Below, one piece after another: positions 39,289 to 45,566 of a stretch of 46,259 nucleotides of DNA. The notes under the pieces are model-generated. The model was not told the origin of the DNA, made no database searches, and was given only the letters and a program-made list of their open reading frames with translations. Source of the stretch: Methanobacteriota archaeon (lineage in GTDB: Archaea; Thermoplasmatota; Thermoplasmata; Methanomassiliicoccales; Methanomassiliicoccaceae); NCBI GenBank assembly GCA_012518185.1, contig JAAYTA010000081.1, forward strand, positions 1 through 46,259, in the 5' to 3' direction. Within the stretch, counting starts at the first letter, position 1; each line of letters starts with the position of its first letter. The translations under genes and the position numbers were made by a program.

Positions 39289-40338
39289 CTATCCCTTCAT
39301 AGCTTTCTCAGATAGATGAGGAGAAGTTACACCAGTAATAACCAACATCACTTTCATCATTCCTTCTAATTCTGGTTCTACTGAGCATCCCCATATTATC
39401 CTCGCACGAGGGCTAATGCGATCGCTAATCATTTTCGCGGCCTTCTCTGCTTCTCCGATTGTCATATCTGGACCGCCCTGCACCCTTACCAATGCGCCTC
39501 GAGCATTGCTCAATTCTATCTCTCCAAGTAAGGGAGATGCTAAGGCATCCTCAACTGCAATTTGTACACGATCTCTAGGATCGTCACTCTCGCCTAAACC
39601 TATGGTAGCCATCCCACCATTGCGCATGACACTCGATACGTCGTTAAAATCAACATTAACTAAACCAGGCTTAGCAACGACATCATTGATGCCTTTAATA
39701 CTCTGCATTAGAACCTCATCAGCTACTTTGAACGCCACTTCTAAAGGAAGTTTAGGAACCAACTTCAATAACTGATCATTAAGAATAGTTATGGTAGTAT
39801 CACAGTGCCTTCTCAGCTCTTCTAATCCTCGTAGCGCATTATTCATACGTAACTTTCCCTCAGCCTTAAATGGTAAAGTAACGACTCCAATTACTAAGGA
39901 ACCATTCCTACGTGCCATCTCGGCTACATAGGGTGCAGCGCCTGTACCTGTACCGCCACCCATCCCTGCAGTAACGAAAACCACTTTGCAGCCATCTATA
40001 TATCTCCTTATTTCGTCCCGAGCTTCTTCTGCTGCGTACTTCCCAACCTGAGGTATCGAACCTGCTCCGAGTCCTCTAGTAGTTTCCTTCCCCAATAGAA
40101 GACGATAGGGTGCCCTTATGCCAAGTAGATGTTTAGCATCGCTATTTGCAGCTACTAATATTGCGTCGCCCACACCTACCTGAGCCAATCTGCCAACTGC
40201 ATTTGATCCGCCTCCTCCGCATCCGATGATCGATGTGCGTATCTCCATTTCCTTGATCAGCTGGCGTAACTCTTCATCGACGGCAGAGGATAGCTGAAAT
40301 GACTCATCTTCTGACCCAATATTCCACGATAGCTTCAT
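39289..40338 (-). CDS. ftsZ: Cell division protein FtsZ
   Basis: The 349-residue GTPase has SIIGCGGGGSNAVGRL, the G-box VTAGMGGGTGTGAAP, and NVDFNDVSSVMRNGGMATIGLGE (T7 loop region). It polymerises into the division ring. The first ~30 residues are a variable extension and the C-terminus is short (SPHLSEKAMKG). SD-like GGGATGCACGG precedes ATG 40338. Co-transcription with pop5 is unusual. The upstream region is shared with the divergent hdrA operon and contains three copies of AACGTTTA. Whether the genome has a second FtsZ cannot be seen here. Confidence 0.95.
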   Translation of the reverse strand: MKLSWNIGSEDESFQLSSAVDEELRQLIKEMEIRTSIIGCGGGGSNAVGRLAQVGVGDAILVAANSDAKHLLGIRAPYRLLLGKETTRGLGAGSIPQVGKYAAEEARDEIRRYIDGCKVVFVTAGMGGGTGTGAAPYVAEMARRNGSLVIGVVTLPFKAEGKLRMNNALRGLEELRRHCDTTITILNDQLLKLVPKLPLEVAFKVADEVLMQSIKGINDVVAKPGLVNVDFNDVSSVMRNGGMATIGLGESDDPRDRVQIAVEDALASPLLGEIELSNARGALVRVQGGPDMTIGEAEKAAKMISDRISPRARIIWGCSVEPELEGMMKVMLVITGVTSPHLSEKAMKG

Positions 40339-40507: not shown

Positions 40508-40644
40508 GAATAATAATTATTATCTTCCAATGTATTTATATAACGATCAATGTCCTTATAATATATGTTATATGTATAAACTAACACTATATGTCTAAGA
40601 TTTCTCAGGAAAGGTAATTTAGGATAAATCAGTATCGAAAAGAT

Positions 40645-40656
40645 ACGAACGTTCGT
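40645..40656. promoter_or_regulatory. 12-base palindrome upstream of the hdrA promoter
   Basis: ACGAACGTTCGT is a perfect 12-base palindrome about 28 bases upstream of the candidate hdrA TATA box, and shares the AACGTT core with the repeats nearer ftsZ. The position suits an activator or repressor operator. Confidence 0.45.
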
Positions 40657-40684
40657 CTTATAATGACTAATAAGCCGAAATCAT

Positions 40685-40691
40685 TATATAC
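40685..40691 (+). promoter_or_regulatory. Candidate BRE/TATA promoter of the hdrA-mvhDGA operon
   Basis: TATATAC is preceded by the purine-rich CGAAA (40676-40680), as in a BRE. Transcription would start near 40712, giving a leader of over 300 bases before HdrA, or about 20 bases before the small reading frame at 40735. Confidence 0.5.
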
Positions 40692-40734
40692 TTTGATGCC
40701 GAAATTGGCTTGAAAATCCCCTAGAATAGGAGTA

Positions 40735-41025
40735 ATGTACGATATGTTAATATATGGACATCCCTTTCTCCGAAAAAAGCGCCCACGCCAGATTTTCCAT
40801 CCTCTCGGGGATGATAATGTGGCATATGCCAGCTACTGGTCCAGGCTGCGGGTCTTTGAATCGAGCGATAAGTGCCAGAAAGCGTATCGCTCACGAACTG
40901 GAGGAAGAATGTTCGTAAAAAAAACAGCGAGGATTCCCATGAATGGAGTCAGACTGACTAAGGAACATTCAGACAAGAACTTTTGTACTGGTGGAGTGAG
41001 AACCATATTGCATGGAGGAGTATGA
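40735..41025 (+). CDS. Possible small basic protein or structured hdrA leader
   Basis: I do not recognise the 96-residue translation (MYDMLIYGHPFLRKKRPRQ at the start, FCTGGVRTILHGGV at the end). For a gene: AGGAG (40728-40732) lies just before ATG 40735, the candidate TATA box is about 50 bases upstream, and the stop overlaps an in-frame ATG of hdrA as ATGA (41022-41025). Against: codon use is unlike the neighbours, composition is basic and loop-like, and the segment holds possible RNA stems, including an eight-base one. It may be an RNA leader that is open by chance. Confidence 0.3.
   Translation: MYDMLIYGHPFLRKKRPRQIFHPLGDDNVAYASYWSRLRVFESSDKCQKAYRSRTGGRMFVKKTARIPMNGVRLTKEHSDKNFCTGGVRTILHGGV
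40863..40892 (+). promoter_or_regulatory. Stem-loop in the hdrA leader
   Basis: GAGCGATA (40863-40870) pairs perfectly with TATCGCTC (40885-40892) over a 14-base loop. Other possible pairings nearby are CATCC 40798-40802 with GGATG 40809-40813, the palindrome GGCATATGCC 40821-40830, and AGTCA 40947-40951 with TGACT 40955-40959. Together they suggest a folded leader. I could not match it to a riboswitch class that I know. Confidence 0.4.
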
Positions 41026-41027
41026 AG

Positions 41028-44000
41028 ATGTCAAATGATATGGGTGCAGTGATGGTCGTCGGTGGAGGTATCTCCGGCGTCCAGACCGCTCTGGATCTCG
41101 CTGAGTCGGGATTCAAGGTCTATGTTGTAGAAAATAAGCCAAGCATCGGCGGCGTCATGTCCCAATTGGATAAGACTTTCCCTACGAACGATTGTTCGAT
41201 GTGTATTCTGTCGCCCAAGCTTGTAGAGCTAGCGAGGCATCCCCTAATCGATCTTATGACTCTCAGTGAAGTAACTGAGGTCTCTGGAGAAGCGCCTAAC
41301 TTCAAAGTTAAAGTCAGGCACAATCCTAGATATGTGGATATGGACAAGTGTGTCGGTTGCGGTATTTGTGCCGATAAGTGTCCTGTTAAGGTGCCAAATG
41401 AATACGATGAAGGTTTAATGGAACGCAAAGCGATCTATGTCCCCTTCGCTCAGGCCGTACCGTTGAAGTACACCATCGATGAGGCTAGGTGTCTAAAACT
41501 CACTAAAGATCGTTGTGGATTATGTGAGAAGAACTGTCCTGCTGGCGCAATTAATTATGATGACAAGCCGGTAGAGGAAACTGTCGATGTCGGTGCGATC
41601 ATACTTGCGCCTGGATTCGATGCGTTCGATGCTAGATTGAAGAGAGAATATGGATACGGCGATTATCAGAATGTGCTTACTTCGGTGGAGTTTGAGAGAT
41701 TCCTATCCGCCACTGGACCATATGGCGGTCACATACTCAGGCCCAGCGATCAAGAAGCGCCAAAGAAAGTAGCATTCTTACAATGTGTCGGTTCCAGAGA
41801 TAGCAACACCAATGAGTATTGCTCATCTGTATGTTGTATGTATGGTATTAAGCAGGCAATTATTGCTGGCGAACATACTGCTGGATTAGAGCCAAGCATT
41901 TTCTTCATGGATATAAGGGCAGTAGGAAAGGAGTTTGAAGACTACCGAGCCCGTGCTGAGAATGAGTATGGCATCAGAATGCTGAGAGGTACTCGTGTTG
42001 CTAGCATTGATGAAGATCCTGATACTAAGAATCTATATCTGCGCTACGCAGTTGATGGCGAAGTATTCGAAGAAGAATTCGACATGGTAATCCTTTCAGT
42101 CGGACTAGAGCCGCCGAAGGGAGCTAATGAATTATCTCAAGTATTCAACGTCGATCTTAACAGATTCGGATTTGCAGGTACAGACGTATATAGCCCACTT
42201 AGCTCATCTAAGCCCGGTGTGTTTGTAACTGGCGCCTTTGCATCTCCCAAGGATATTCCAACCTCGGTAGCTGAGGCTTCTGGAGCTGCTGCTAAGGCTG
42301 GCGCTTTCATCGCAGAAAAGAGAGGTGCTGTAGAGGAACTTGATATCGAAGAGATAGATGTCGAAGGTCAGGAGCCTCGTATCGGTGTATTTGTCTGTGA
42401 TTGCGGTATCAACATTAGAGGGACTGTAGACTGTCCGGCAGTAACTGATTACTCTAAGAATCTATCCAACGTTGTGCACGCTGAAGAGATGAAATATGCT
42501 TGTTCTGCTGATGCTCAGCAAAGGATAAGGGAAGTAATTAATGATGAGAACCTCAACCGAGTAGTCGTTGCATCTTGCACGCCACGTACTCATGAAGCAC
42601 TCTTCCAGAGCACTCTGAAGGAAGCCGGTCTCAACCCATACTTGTTCGAGATGGCCAACATCCGTGATCAGTGTTCTTGGATCCATCAGAATGAGCCAGA
42701 AAGGGCTACTAAGAAATCTATGGATCTCGTTAGAATGGCAGTTGCTAAGTCGAGACTATTAGAGCCCCTCACTGAGAGCAAGTTACCTGTTACTCGCAGC
42801 GGTGTCGTCATCGGAGGCGGAATATCAGGTATGACTGCTGCCCTAGATATGGCTGCACAGGGCTTCGAAGTAGATCTTCTTGAAAAGACTGGAGAACTTG
42901 GTGGAAATGCTATCAAGATCTTCCATGAGGAAGATGGCCGAAAGGTACGCGACTTTGCCAATGAACTAGTCAGCAGGGTGAGCAATACAAGCAATATCAC
43001 TGTCCATCTAAACACGCCAGTTGAAGATATCTCCGGATTTGTCGGGAACTTTAAGGTAAAGATTCGAGATGAGGAGATTGAAACTGGATCCATTATAGTG
43101 GCAGTTGGAGCTAAAGAATACGTCCCCAAGGAATACTTCTACGGAGATGACAAGAGAGTTGTCACTCAGCTCGAACTTGAGAACAAGATGCAGCAGGGTC
43201 CACTAGATGCCAAAACCATCGCCATGATCCAATGTGTCGGTTCCAGAAATACTGAAGCTCCCTACTGTAGCAGAGTATGTTGCTCTAACGCCATTAAGAA
43301 TGCAATATCCATCAAGAAGGAAAATCCGCAAGCTCAGGTATTTGTCTTCCATAAAGATATCAGGACATACGGATTCAGAGAAGACCTCTACAAGGAAGCC
43401 GGTCGCTTAGGCGTTGACTTCGTCCGTATACCAGAGGACCAACCTCCAGAGCTTAGCAAAGAAGGTGAGTCCCTCAAGATGACAGCAAGAGACACTATTC
43501 TTGGAGAGGATCTAGTGATTCGCCCCGATATGGTAGTTCTCAGCACTGGAATAAGGCCCAATGAGGACAACGAGGAGCTTGCCAAGATGCTAAAGGTACC
43601 TCTTAGCAAGGACAAATTCTTCTTAGAGGCACATATGAAACTGCGACCGGTTGAATTTGCTACCAACGGTGTTTACCTAGCTGGACTAGCTCACTGGCCG
43701 AAGTTTGTGGATGAGAGCATAGCTCAGGCATCCGGCGCAGCATCTAGGGCAATAACAGTGATATCTAAGCCAGAACTAAAGAGTGAAGGCATAATTGCTG
43801 CTGTCAATGAAGATCTCTGTGATGGCTGCGGAATATGTGAGCCCGTATGTGAATACAAGGCGATCACTATTACTGAGAACCCGAAGAATCCAGAGAAGAA
43901 GAAGGCTATGGTAAATGAGGGCCTATGCAAGGGTTGCGGTGGCTGTGTGGCTGCATGCCCATCCGCTGCAATGGAGCAGAGGGGCTTTAAGAACGAACAA

Positions 44001-44042
44001 ATTATCGCTGCTATTGACGCAGCTCTTGAGGAGAGTGAGTGA
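41028..44042 (+). CDS. hdrA: HdrA-like electron-bifurcating flavoprotein, tandem double form
   Basis: At 1004 residues this joins two HdrA-like halves. Half one (1-~445) has the FAD site VVGGGISGVQ (10-19), TFPTNDCSMCILSPK (50-64) and two cluster motifs, C108xxCxxCxxxC118 and C155...C163xxCxxxC170. Half two begins with the HdrA N-terminal domain (RIGVFVCDCGINIRG, ~452; ASCTPRTHEALF), then a second FAD site (VVIGGGISGM, ~595) without the TFPTNDC insert, and ends with two [4Fe-4S] ferredoxin motifs (CDGCGICEPVC ~930; CKGCGGCVAAC ~966). Normal HdrA is about 650 residues. HdrA bifurcates electrons from MvhD to ferredoxin and HdrBC. ATG 41028 is nine bases after GGAGG; ATG 41022 is also possible. 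Confidence 0.92.
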   Translation: MSNDMGAVMVVGGGISGVQTALDLAESGFKVYVVENKPSIGGVMSQLDKTFPTNDCSMCILSPKLVELARHPLIDLMTLSEVTEVSGEAPNFKVKVRHNPRYVDMDKCVGCGICADKCPVKVPNEYDEGLMERKAIYVPFAQAVPLKYTIDEARCLKLTKDRCGLCEKNCPAGAINYDDKPVEETVDVGAIILAPGFDAFDARLKREYGYGDYQNVLTSVEFERFLSATGPYGGHILRPSDQEAPKKVAFLQCVGSRDSNTNEYCSSVCCMYGIKQAIIAGEHTAGLEPSIFFMDIRAVGKEFEDYRARAENEYGIRMLRGTRVASIDEDPDTKNLYLRYAVDGEVFEEEFDMVILSVGLEPPKGANELSQVFNVDLNRFGFAGTDVYSPLSSSKPGVFVTGAFASPKDIPTSVAEASGAAAKAGAFIAEKRGAVEELDIEEIDVEGQEPRIGVFVCDCGINIRGTVDCPAVTDYSKNLSNVVHAEEMKYACSADAQQRIREVINDENLNRVVVASCTPRTHEALFQSTLKEAGLNPYLFEMANIRDQCSWIHQNEPERATKKSMDLVRMAVAKSRLLEPLTESKLPVTRSGVVIGGGISGMTAALDMAAQGFEVDLLEKTGELGGNAIKIFHEEDGRKVRDFANELVSRVSNTSNITVHLNTPVEDISGFVGNFKVKIRDEEIETGSIIVAVGAKEYVPKEYFYGDDKRVVTQLELENKMQQGPLDAKTIAMIQCVGSRNTEAPYCSRVCCSNAIKNAISIKKENPQAQVFVFHKDIRTYGFREDLYKEAGRLGVDFVRIPEDQPPELSKEGESLKMTARDTILGEDLVIRPDMVVLSTGIRPNEDNEELAKMLKVPLSKDKFFLEAHMKLRPVEFATNGVYLAGLAHWPKFVDESIAQASGAASRAITVISKPELKSEGIIAAVNEDLCDGCGICEPVCEYKAITITENPKNPEKKKAMVNEGLCKGCGGCVAACPSAAMEQRGFKNEQIIAAIDAALEESE

Positions 44043-44044
44043 AG

Positions 44045-44542
44045 ATGACCTCGACCCAACATGAGACCCAGGCCGCCACCGCGGCCACAGGGGAGCAGTT
44101 TGAACCAAAGATCATTGCGTTCTGCTGCAACTGGTGCTCCTACGCCGGGGCCGACCTGGCAGGTGTCTCCAGACTACAAATGCCCACCAACTTCCTGGTA
44201 TTGAGAGCCATGTGCTCTGCCAGGGTGGATCCTGAGCATGTTCTCAGAGCCTTTTCCAAGGGCGCCGATGGCGTCATGGTGCTAGGCTGCCATCCTGCTG
44301 ACTGCCATTACATTGGTGGAAATTACCGTACTCGCAGGAGGATCGCTCTCCTGAAGATGTTATTAGAACAGTATGGATTAGATCCTGAGCGCCTCAAGCT
44401 CGAGTGGGTATCTGCCTCTGAGGGTGTAAAATTCCAGAACACTGTTACTGACTTCGTGGAGATGATCAGAGAGATGGGACCCAACCCCCTCATCGAAGCG
44501 GAGAAACAACACAAGGCCGAGAGGGCCAAATATGGACACTGA
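44045..44542 (+). CDS. mvhD: F420-non-reducing hydrogenase iron-sulfur subunit MvhD
   Basis: The 165-residue protein has the MvhD [2Fe-2S] motifs FCCNWCSYAGADLAG, LRAMCSARVDP, and VLGCHPADCHYIGGN. It relays electrons from the hydrogenase to HdrA. A low-complexity Ala/Thr-rich, GC-rich N-terminal extension (about 20 residues) precedes the core. GTG 44039, which overlaps the HdrA stop, and ATG 44045 are both possible starts; GAGGAG (44028-44033) could serve either. In some relatives MvhD is fused to HdrA, but here it is separate. Confidence 0.93.
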   Translation: MTSTQHETQAATAATGEQFEPKIIAFCCNWCSYAGADLAGVSRLQMPTNFLVLRAMCSARVDPEHVLRAFSKGADGVMVLGCHPADCHYIGGNYRTRRRIALLKMLLEQYGLDPERLKLEWVSASEGVKFQNTVTDFVEMIREMGPNPLIEAEKQHKAERAKYGH

Positions 44543-44552
44543 GGTGTAACCA

Positions 44553-45566
44553 ATGGCAAAAAAAGTATCTATTGCACAATATTGGGGCGCCGGATGTGGT
44601 GGTTGCGATGTAGCTCTCCTCGACATCGATGAAAGGATCCTCGGAGTGGCCGAGATGGCAGATATTGCCTTCTGGCCCATTGCCGTGGACACTAAATTAA
44701 AAGATGTTGAGGCGATGCCTGACAAGAGCATCACCATCACTCTGTATAATGGCGCCATAAGAAATAGTGAGAATGAACACGTCGCCAAATTACTCAGACA
44801 GAAGTCTCAGATCATGGTATCATTTGGCTCCTGTGCTTGCTATGGCGGCATACCTGGATTAGCCAATGTAACCAACAAAAAGGCTATCATGGATTATGTC
44901 TATAATAAGACATTCTCCAGCATAAACCCTGATGAGACGCTCCCCCAAGTTAAATATCAGGCTCCCGAAGGTGAGTTAGAGCTTCCTGTCCTGTATGACA
45001 CAGTCTTAACATTAGACGATGTCGTGGACGTGGACTACTATATGCCTGGCTGCCCGCCGGCAGTTAGCTTGATCAATGAATTCCTGGACATAGTGGAGAA
45101 GCATGTCAAAGAGGGTGCCGATCTACCTCCCAAGGGATCGTTCATCGCGTCGCAAAAGACGCTTTGTGACGAATGTGGTCGGGAAAAATCATATGAACCG
45201 ATAGATCGCATATACTTACCTCACGAGATCGACATCGATCCTGAGAAATGTATGCTAGATCAAGGAGTCATCTGCCTCGGGCCGGCTACACGTGCTGGCT
45301 GTGGAGCACAGTGTTTGAACGCCAATCAGCCCTGTCGTGGCTGTATGGGACCAACCGCTGCAGTGGAAGATCACGGTGGCTCTATGCTGAGTGCACTAGC
45401 ATCTATCTTCAGGACTGCTGATAATGAGACCCATCTATCCGAAGATGACATCCTCAAGATGATGAGTGAGATTAAGGATCCCCTGGGAACGTTCTATGCG
45501 TTCACAATGCCTAAATCCATCATTAAGAGGAAAGTTACCGAGAGGAAGGCGGAGGTATCCGAATGA
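44553..45566 (+). CDS. mvhG: F420-non-reducing hydrogenase small subunit MvhG
   Basis: The 337-residue protein is a [NiFe]-hydrogenase small subunit without a signal peptide. The proximal cluster site is GAGCGGCDVALLDID (C15, C18), with further ligands in GSCACYGGIPG and PGCPP. The C-terminal part has CDECGREKSYEP, CLGPATRAGCGAQC and CRGCMGP, for medial and distal [4Fe-4S] clusters. It carries electrons from the NiFe site to MvhD. GAGGTGTAACC precedes the ATG. The stop overlaps the MvhA start as ATGA. Confidence 0.95.
   Translation: MAKKVSIAQYWGAGCGGCDVALLDIDERILGVAEMADIAFWPIAVDTKLKDVEAMPDKSITITLYNGAIRNSENEHVAKLLRQKSQIMVSFGSCACYGGIPGLANVTNKKAIMDYVYNKTFSSINPDETLPQVKYQAPEGELELPVLYDTVLTLDDVVDVDYYMPGCPPAVSLINEFLDIVEKHVKEGADLPPKGSFIASQKTLCDECGREKSYEPIDRIYLPHEIDIDPEKCMLDQGVICLGPATRAGCGAQCLNANQPCRGCMGPTAAVEDHGGSMLSALASIFRTADNETHLSEDDILKMMSEIKDPLGTFYAFTMPKSIIKRKVTERKAEVSE

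Follow-up and report, generated by a model that had tools for sequence, protein, structure and literature searches.

A conserved leader and a predicted MsvR operator ahead of the hdrA-hydrogenase operon in Methanomassiliicoccaceae

The HdrA-hydrogenase complex is the core of H2-dependent methyl-reducing energy metabolism in Methanomassiliicoccales, and its regulation in this order appears undescribed. In Methanosarcina, MsvR is regarded as a repressor and binds TTCGTAN4TACGAA when conditions are reducing; the V4R cysteines of MaMsvR are C206, C232, and C240 (PMC3729527). Our literature search found no paper joining MsvR with Methanomassiliicoccales. Ribo-seq of Methanosarcina mazei places upstream ORFs (uORFs) in archaeal 5′ untranslated regions, and the main text of that paper does not mention hdrA (PMC11456600). 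Here we analyze the region before hdrA in a member of the Methanomassiliicoccaceae and offer a hypothesis for its control that names a redox regulator, predicts its operator to the single base, and includes a target operon and a leader ORF.

The window, by which we mean the whole stretch of 46,259 nucleotides analyzed, comes from a Methanomassiliicoccaceae genome (G000:C38), whose relatives include several Methanomassiliicoccus MAGs and Methanomassiliicoccales archaeon RumEn M1. The site of interest is the gap between a divergent ftsZ (39289 to 40338; TIGR00065, 7e-114) and an operon in the order hdrA, hydrogenase delta subunit, hydrogenase small subunit:

41028 to 44042, plus strand: hdrA, 1004 amino acids; HdrA2/HdrA models match with E values of 0 to 4e-222, though under the curated cut-offs; start placed by alignment of 15
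44039 to 44542, plus strand: hydrogenase delta subunit gene, mvhD/vhuD type (Pfam FlpD, 2e-54)
44553 to 45566, plus strand: hydrogenase small-subunit gene, vhuG/mvhG type (VhuG, 2e-58, under the curated cut-off; Oxidored_q6, 3e-21)

A first-pass annotation of this DNA had proposed that a leader of about 315 nt, lying between promoter and hdrA, controls the operon either as a coupled leader peptide gene or as an RNA switch. The elements it drew on are present: the BRE/TATA fits a start near 40712, the leader is richer in GC than the preceding DNA (0.40 to 0.51 versus 0.21 to 0.34), and the 96-codon frame, its AGGAG, and the arms of a stem lie where they had been placed. It missed a palindrome upstream of the BRE/TATA, as well as a second strong ribosome site and start codon (GGAGGA at 40900 to 40905, ATG at 40909) inside the frame. 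The features are as follows:

40644 to 40657, no strand: predicted MsvR operator, 14-bp palindrome TACGAACGTTCGTC, before hdrA in 14 of 15 family genomes
40674 to 40689, plus strand: BRE/TATA element GCCGAAATCATTATAT, score 10.8
about 40712, plus strand: predicted transcription start, about 26 nt below the TATA center
40728 to 40732, plus strand: Shine-Dalgarno-like AGGAG of the leader ORF; a G-rich motif lies about 11 nt 5′ of the conserved ATG in 14 of 15 genomes
40735 to 41025, plus strand: leader ORF, a 96-codon frame with a conserved in-frame ATG at 40744; open in relatives, where it reaches hdrA in 10 of 15, is split near 40909 in 4 of 15, and is short in 1
40740 to 40784, plus strand: conserved 5′ block (block A), CGATATGTTAATATA...ACATCCC...AAAAAAGCGCCC; a hairpin is possible with flanking bases (40726 to 40766)
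40863 to 40892, plus strand: the stem-loop already named in the first pass, with perfect 8-bp arms GAGCGATA (40863 to 40870) and TATCGCTC (40885 to 40892); related stem within the genus, unalignable beyond it
40900 to 40911, plus strand: internal ribosome site and start codon GGAGGAAGAATG; ATG here in 15 of 15 family genomes, with GGAGG in 12
40904 to 40917, no strand: tentative secondary MsvR-like site GAAGAATGTTCGTA; profile score 14.5, shuffle p 0.001 in the close relative G004, which has the same site
40909 to 41025, plus strand: second, nested leader ORF, 38 codons in this genome; a separate overlapping ORF in G011, G009, G013, and G007
41014 to 41020, plus strand: hdrA Shine-Dalgarno GGAGGAG; GGAGGA identical in 15 of 15 genomes

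Scored with a profile trained on 30 tRNA promoters of the relative G008 (median 11.2), the BRE/TATA is the best site of the leader region, and the best site falls at the equivalent place in 14 of 15 genomes. The AGGAG is 2 nt before the ATG at 40735 but 11 nt before the in-frame ATG at 40744, and it is the latter that is conserved in 14 of 15 relatives. At the far end, the reported ATGA overlap (41022 to 41025) is real in that the TGA stop lies inside ATGA and the ATG at 41022 shares the hdrA reading frame; however, the overlap is private to this genome, and the conserved hdrA start is 41028.

The leader of about 315 nt is found in all 15 family genomes searched. Its 5′ block, CGATAYGTTAATATA, sits 289 to 321 nt upstream of a fixed position in the start region of hdrA in these genomes, is single copy in each, and occurs only before hdrA. 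Conservation is concentrated in patches: one is the 5′ block together with AAAAGCACCC..GCCA, another reads TTGTCC, and the remaining two are the internal GGAGGA...ATG and the hdrA site. The sequence between them diverges fast. The patches evolve far more slowly than hdrA 4-fold sites, while the intervening stretches approach those rates in several comparisons. In ten genomes of a second family (f3), a homologous block, TTCAAAAYGTTGAAATAYGGACATCCNTAT, lies below a strong TATA, about 232 to 380 nt before hdrA. A two-family profile finds the block once per genome in 15 of 15 family genomes and 17 f3 genomes, with two marginal matches elsewhere (147 genomes). The distance from block to TATA (about 57 to 65 nt, from alignments) is steadier than that from block to hdrA and is the same in the second family. 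Read in frame 0, the block gives the peptide FK[TM]LKYGHPY in one family and [YF]D[MT]LIYEH[PS] in the other; its start codon is ACG, ATC, or ATA in several second-family genomes, where the leader ORF may start upstream or at a non-canonical codon. Judged by this sequence record, the leader is a real, conserved control leader, and its presence in every family genome and the recurrence of its 5′ block in a second family bear out the general proposal of a control leader for the Hdr/hydrogenase operon.

Other arrangements occur upstream of hdrA. In one genus of f3 (g6; L160, L164, L166, L167), the HdrA frame extends about 45 codons 5′ of the usual start (RKLSGLKSIFGGLFKKDSK...) and is conserved in the genus; this upstream frame, about 140 nt before the hdrA start, either extends the N terminus or is a second leader ORF fused to hdrA. 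In families f4 and f6 (L011, L020), the hdrA copy follows a longer ORF that directly abuts it (..IGGA*) and has an HTH-like C-terminal part.

Of the new elements, the predicted link to MsvR is in our view the most useful. The palindrome TACGAACGTTCGTN stands just upstream of the BRE/TATA and, with one mismatch allowed, is present in 1 to 3 copies per genome; its exact core, ACGAACGTTCGT, is found in 14 of 15 family genomes versus 4 of 132 others of the order. The same palindrome or a close variant lies 52 to 64 nt before msvR in most of 14 family genomes. The ArsR-HTH/V4R gene behind it (L050) is MsvR by NCBIfam (NF053755, 239 bits against a cut-off of 220, 4.7e-71), with HTH_5 at 2.8e-12 and V4R at 5e-8, and the V4R cysteines Cys205, Cys231, and Cys239 are kept in 14 of 14 family MsvR proteins. 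msvR is present in exactly the 14 operator-bearing family genomes and both are absent in G006, a co-occurrence that rests on one loss event, with only one family genome lacking both. In f3, several msvR genes have CGAN4TCG palindromes about 65 nt upstream, and several hdrA promoters have similar palindromes just below TATA (e.g., AACGAACATTCGTA in G027). Elsewhere in the order, MsvR-type proteins are common and the exact core is rare. The palindrome uses the half-site of the known operators (TTCGTAN4TACGAA, TTCGN7-9CGAA) in the opposite arrangement, and a search of the hdrA promoter and leader across the family genomes found no TTCGN7-10CGAA.

Several observations concern MsvR beyond this promoter. 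In G006, where msvR has been lost, the operator and the strong promoter match before hdrA are gone as well, but the bases CGATATGTTAATATACA are kept exactly. The window genome holds two further MsvR-type palindromes (L047:2163, i.e., G000:C113:10662; and L046:2154, i.e., G000:C27:2154), one upstream of a minus-strand CoA-binding acyl-CoA-synthetase-like ORF and the other beside an unknown 132-aa ORF; these have equivalents in G001 (L048) and G005 (L052) and may be further regulon members. Two family genomes have a second, more canonical MsvR paralogue (325 to 332 bits; L121 and L122, G008:C12 and G010:C15).

Is the open frame in the leader translated? Its length is 93 to 97 codons in ten family genomes, 55 to 57 in four, and 15 in one (G006). 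In four of the five genomes with a broken frame, the stop overlaps or adjoins the internal ATG (TGATG in G009, G013, and G007; in G011 the two are no more than 10 nt apart). After the break another open frame runs on to the hdrA site; G006 is the exception. The layout in those four is what a coupled chain would require. In f3 the frame spans 58 to 113 codons in nine of ten genomes and 58 to 69 in five more. When the leader portion below the block was subjected to dinucleotide shuffles in 17 diverged leaders, the combined Fisher p for openness was 2.6e-6 in frame 0, an optimistic value because the leaders are related, versus 0.74 and 0.13 in the other two frames; five held-out leaders, all with 58 to 69 open codons, gave p 0.06 alone.

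Openness is accompanied by little sign of selection on the peptide. Third-position excess is nearly absent from the frame, while hdrA is unmistakable in the same test. A weak codon signal in the distal part at the genus level (p 0.02 to 0.035) and in the 14 N-terminal codons of f3 (p 0.033) is set against a p of 0.18 in the pooled test. An AlphaFold2 model of the leader peptide has a mean pLDDT of 51 and a pTM of 0.10, on which grounds we rejected a folded protein, and searches of Pfam, NCBIfam, and Rfam with the leader ORF returned no credible match. An alternative frame with PGCG/LEEECS-like peptides was also rejected, having an upstream stop and lacking a conserved start. The leader peptide is probably not a folded protein; the frame seems to be kept for being translated rather than for its product, and it resembles a leader ORF that is translated and works in cis. 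Between the two readings originally proposed, the coupled leader ORF is the better one, being open in 17 leaders and reaching or overlapping the next start, and the RNA switch is unsupported.

The reading we favor, at somewhat better than even confidence, is an MsvR-controlled promoter followed by a translated leader ORF coupled to hdrA. Transcription would run from the strong BRE/TATA with a start near 40712, and MsvR, a redox regulator, would control it from the upstream palindrome, with binding and sign both predicted. Ribosomes would enter the leader mRNA at its 5′ end, at ATG 40744 or 40735, and translate a leader ORF of about 55 to 60 codons, which in this genome continues without a stop into a second ORF that has a ribosome site of its own (40900 to 40911). 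They would end at the hdrA start, so that hdrA translation would be coupled to that of the leader. What has been preserved is probably the openness of the frame together with the start region and ribosome sites, not a folded peptide. It is tempting to go further and propose a translation-based attenuator, in which ribosome progress through the fast-evolving leader ORF gates the internal and hdrA ribosome sites beneath MsvR redox control of transcription, a step for which our confidence is low. If true, the central energy-conserving complex of methyl-reducing methanogens would be set by redox state and translation together.

An unlikely alternative, though the best of the others, is a cis-acting structured RNA of the riboswitch or thermosensor kind, in which a 40-nt hairpin of block A covers the first ribosome site and, within the genus, the block pairs with the internal site, the open frame being incidental. 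Block conservation is strong, third codon positions included, and 86% of hairpin cells pair. Folding predictions for four of five close genus members pair the pyrimidine tract of the block with the internal ribosome site; this A-D stem is the minimum free energy structure and leaves the internal site occluded. Genus-level structure beats slid controls, and the window leader folds at -89.4 kcal/mol versus -79.1 for shuffles (z -2.1; 3 of 100 shuffles). The stem named in the first pass has its 8-bp arms, and most genus members have a counterpart, with one compensatory pair, but it is not kept beyond the genus. The checks run on this alternative (RNAalifold on 15, 6, and 8 sequences, pair counts, and an own-versus-cross duplex test) turned up structure at the genus level only. 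The consensus of all 15 leaders reaches only -3.0 kcal/mol, folding z-scores are mostly weak, and the hairpin shows 2 double-change pairs versus 2.1 expected by shuffles. Pairing of A with D is no better within than between genomes (p 0.51), and we rejected that stem as a family-wide sequestering switch on these cross-genome energies. Neither hairpin nor long-range stem covaries above controls across the family, and an Rfam search of the leader gave no credible match. A structured RNA also leaves unexplained why only frame 0 is open. Separately, pairing of an anti-Shine-Dalgarno patch (UUGUCC) with the hdrA site was rejected, as it is the best partner in only about half of the genomes.

It is quite improbable that the leader is plain and untranslated, with block A and the internal start region serving as DNA sites, whether a further promoter or secondary MsvR sites, and the frame open by chance. 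Every tested MsvR-bearing lineage does have a weaker MsvR-like site inside the leader (shuffle p 0.001 to 0.016), and MsvR-less G006 has none, but the position of the site varies from genus to genus. Block A resembles a weak BRE/TATA (rank 2 to 7 of about 450 positions), yet its score of 5.0 compares with a tRNA lower quartile of 9.2, and a second promoter there was rejected for this weakness. Frame openness would again be unexplained.

About as improbable is a small functional protein of 55 to 97 residues that works in trans, with the Hdr/hydrogenase complex as one conceivable target. Although the frame is open, the N-terminal peptide is similar in two families, the first ORF is 58 to 60 codons in many second-family genomes and 55 to 57 in the split first-family ones, and a K-H-P-(C/G)-H motif recurs in many leader peptides, a clear synonymous excess, a confident fold, and a family match are all absent, the C-terminal part is unalignable between genera, and G006 has only its 15 codons.

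The MsvR-controlled, hdrA-coupled leader ORF can be set beside the described systems. Like MsvR of Methanothermobacter and Methanosarcina (PMC3729527), the protein here combines an ArsR-type HTH with a V4R domain bearing three conserved cysteines, the half-site is TACGAA, and a site precedes the regulator's own gene. Unlike in that regulon, the half-sites are arranged as TACGAA-CG-TTCGTA rather than TTCGTA-N4-TACGAA, which suggests that more than one arrangement of MsvR half-sites is possible, and the predicted target is the hdrA-hydrogenase operon. As with the uORFs of M. mazei (PMC11456600), a small ORF possibly tuning translation lies in the 5′ untranslated region of a long gene. A conserved open frame with a start and a ribosome site is found upstream of hdrA, although the start codon is not constant in the second family; unlike those uORFs, the frame is conserved in two families, and in most family members it is continuous as far as the hdrA start. 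From bacterial leader peptides, the locus differs in being archaeal, in a peptide that is barely constrained, and in having no identified stalling motif, ligand, or attenuator; what it shares with them, and with translational coupling, is a ribosome site within or overlapping the upstream frame and a stop that adjoins the downstream start.
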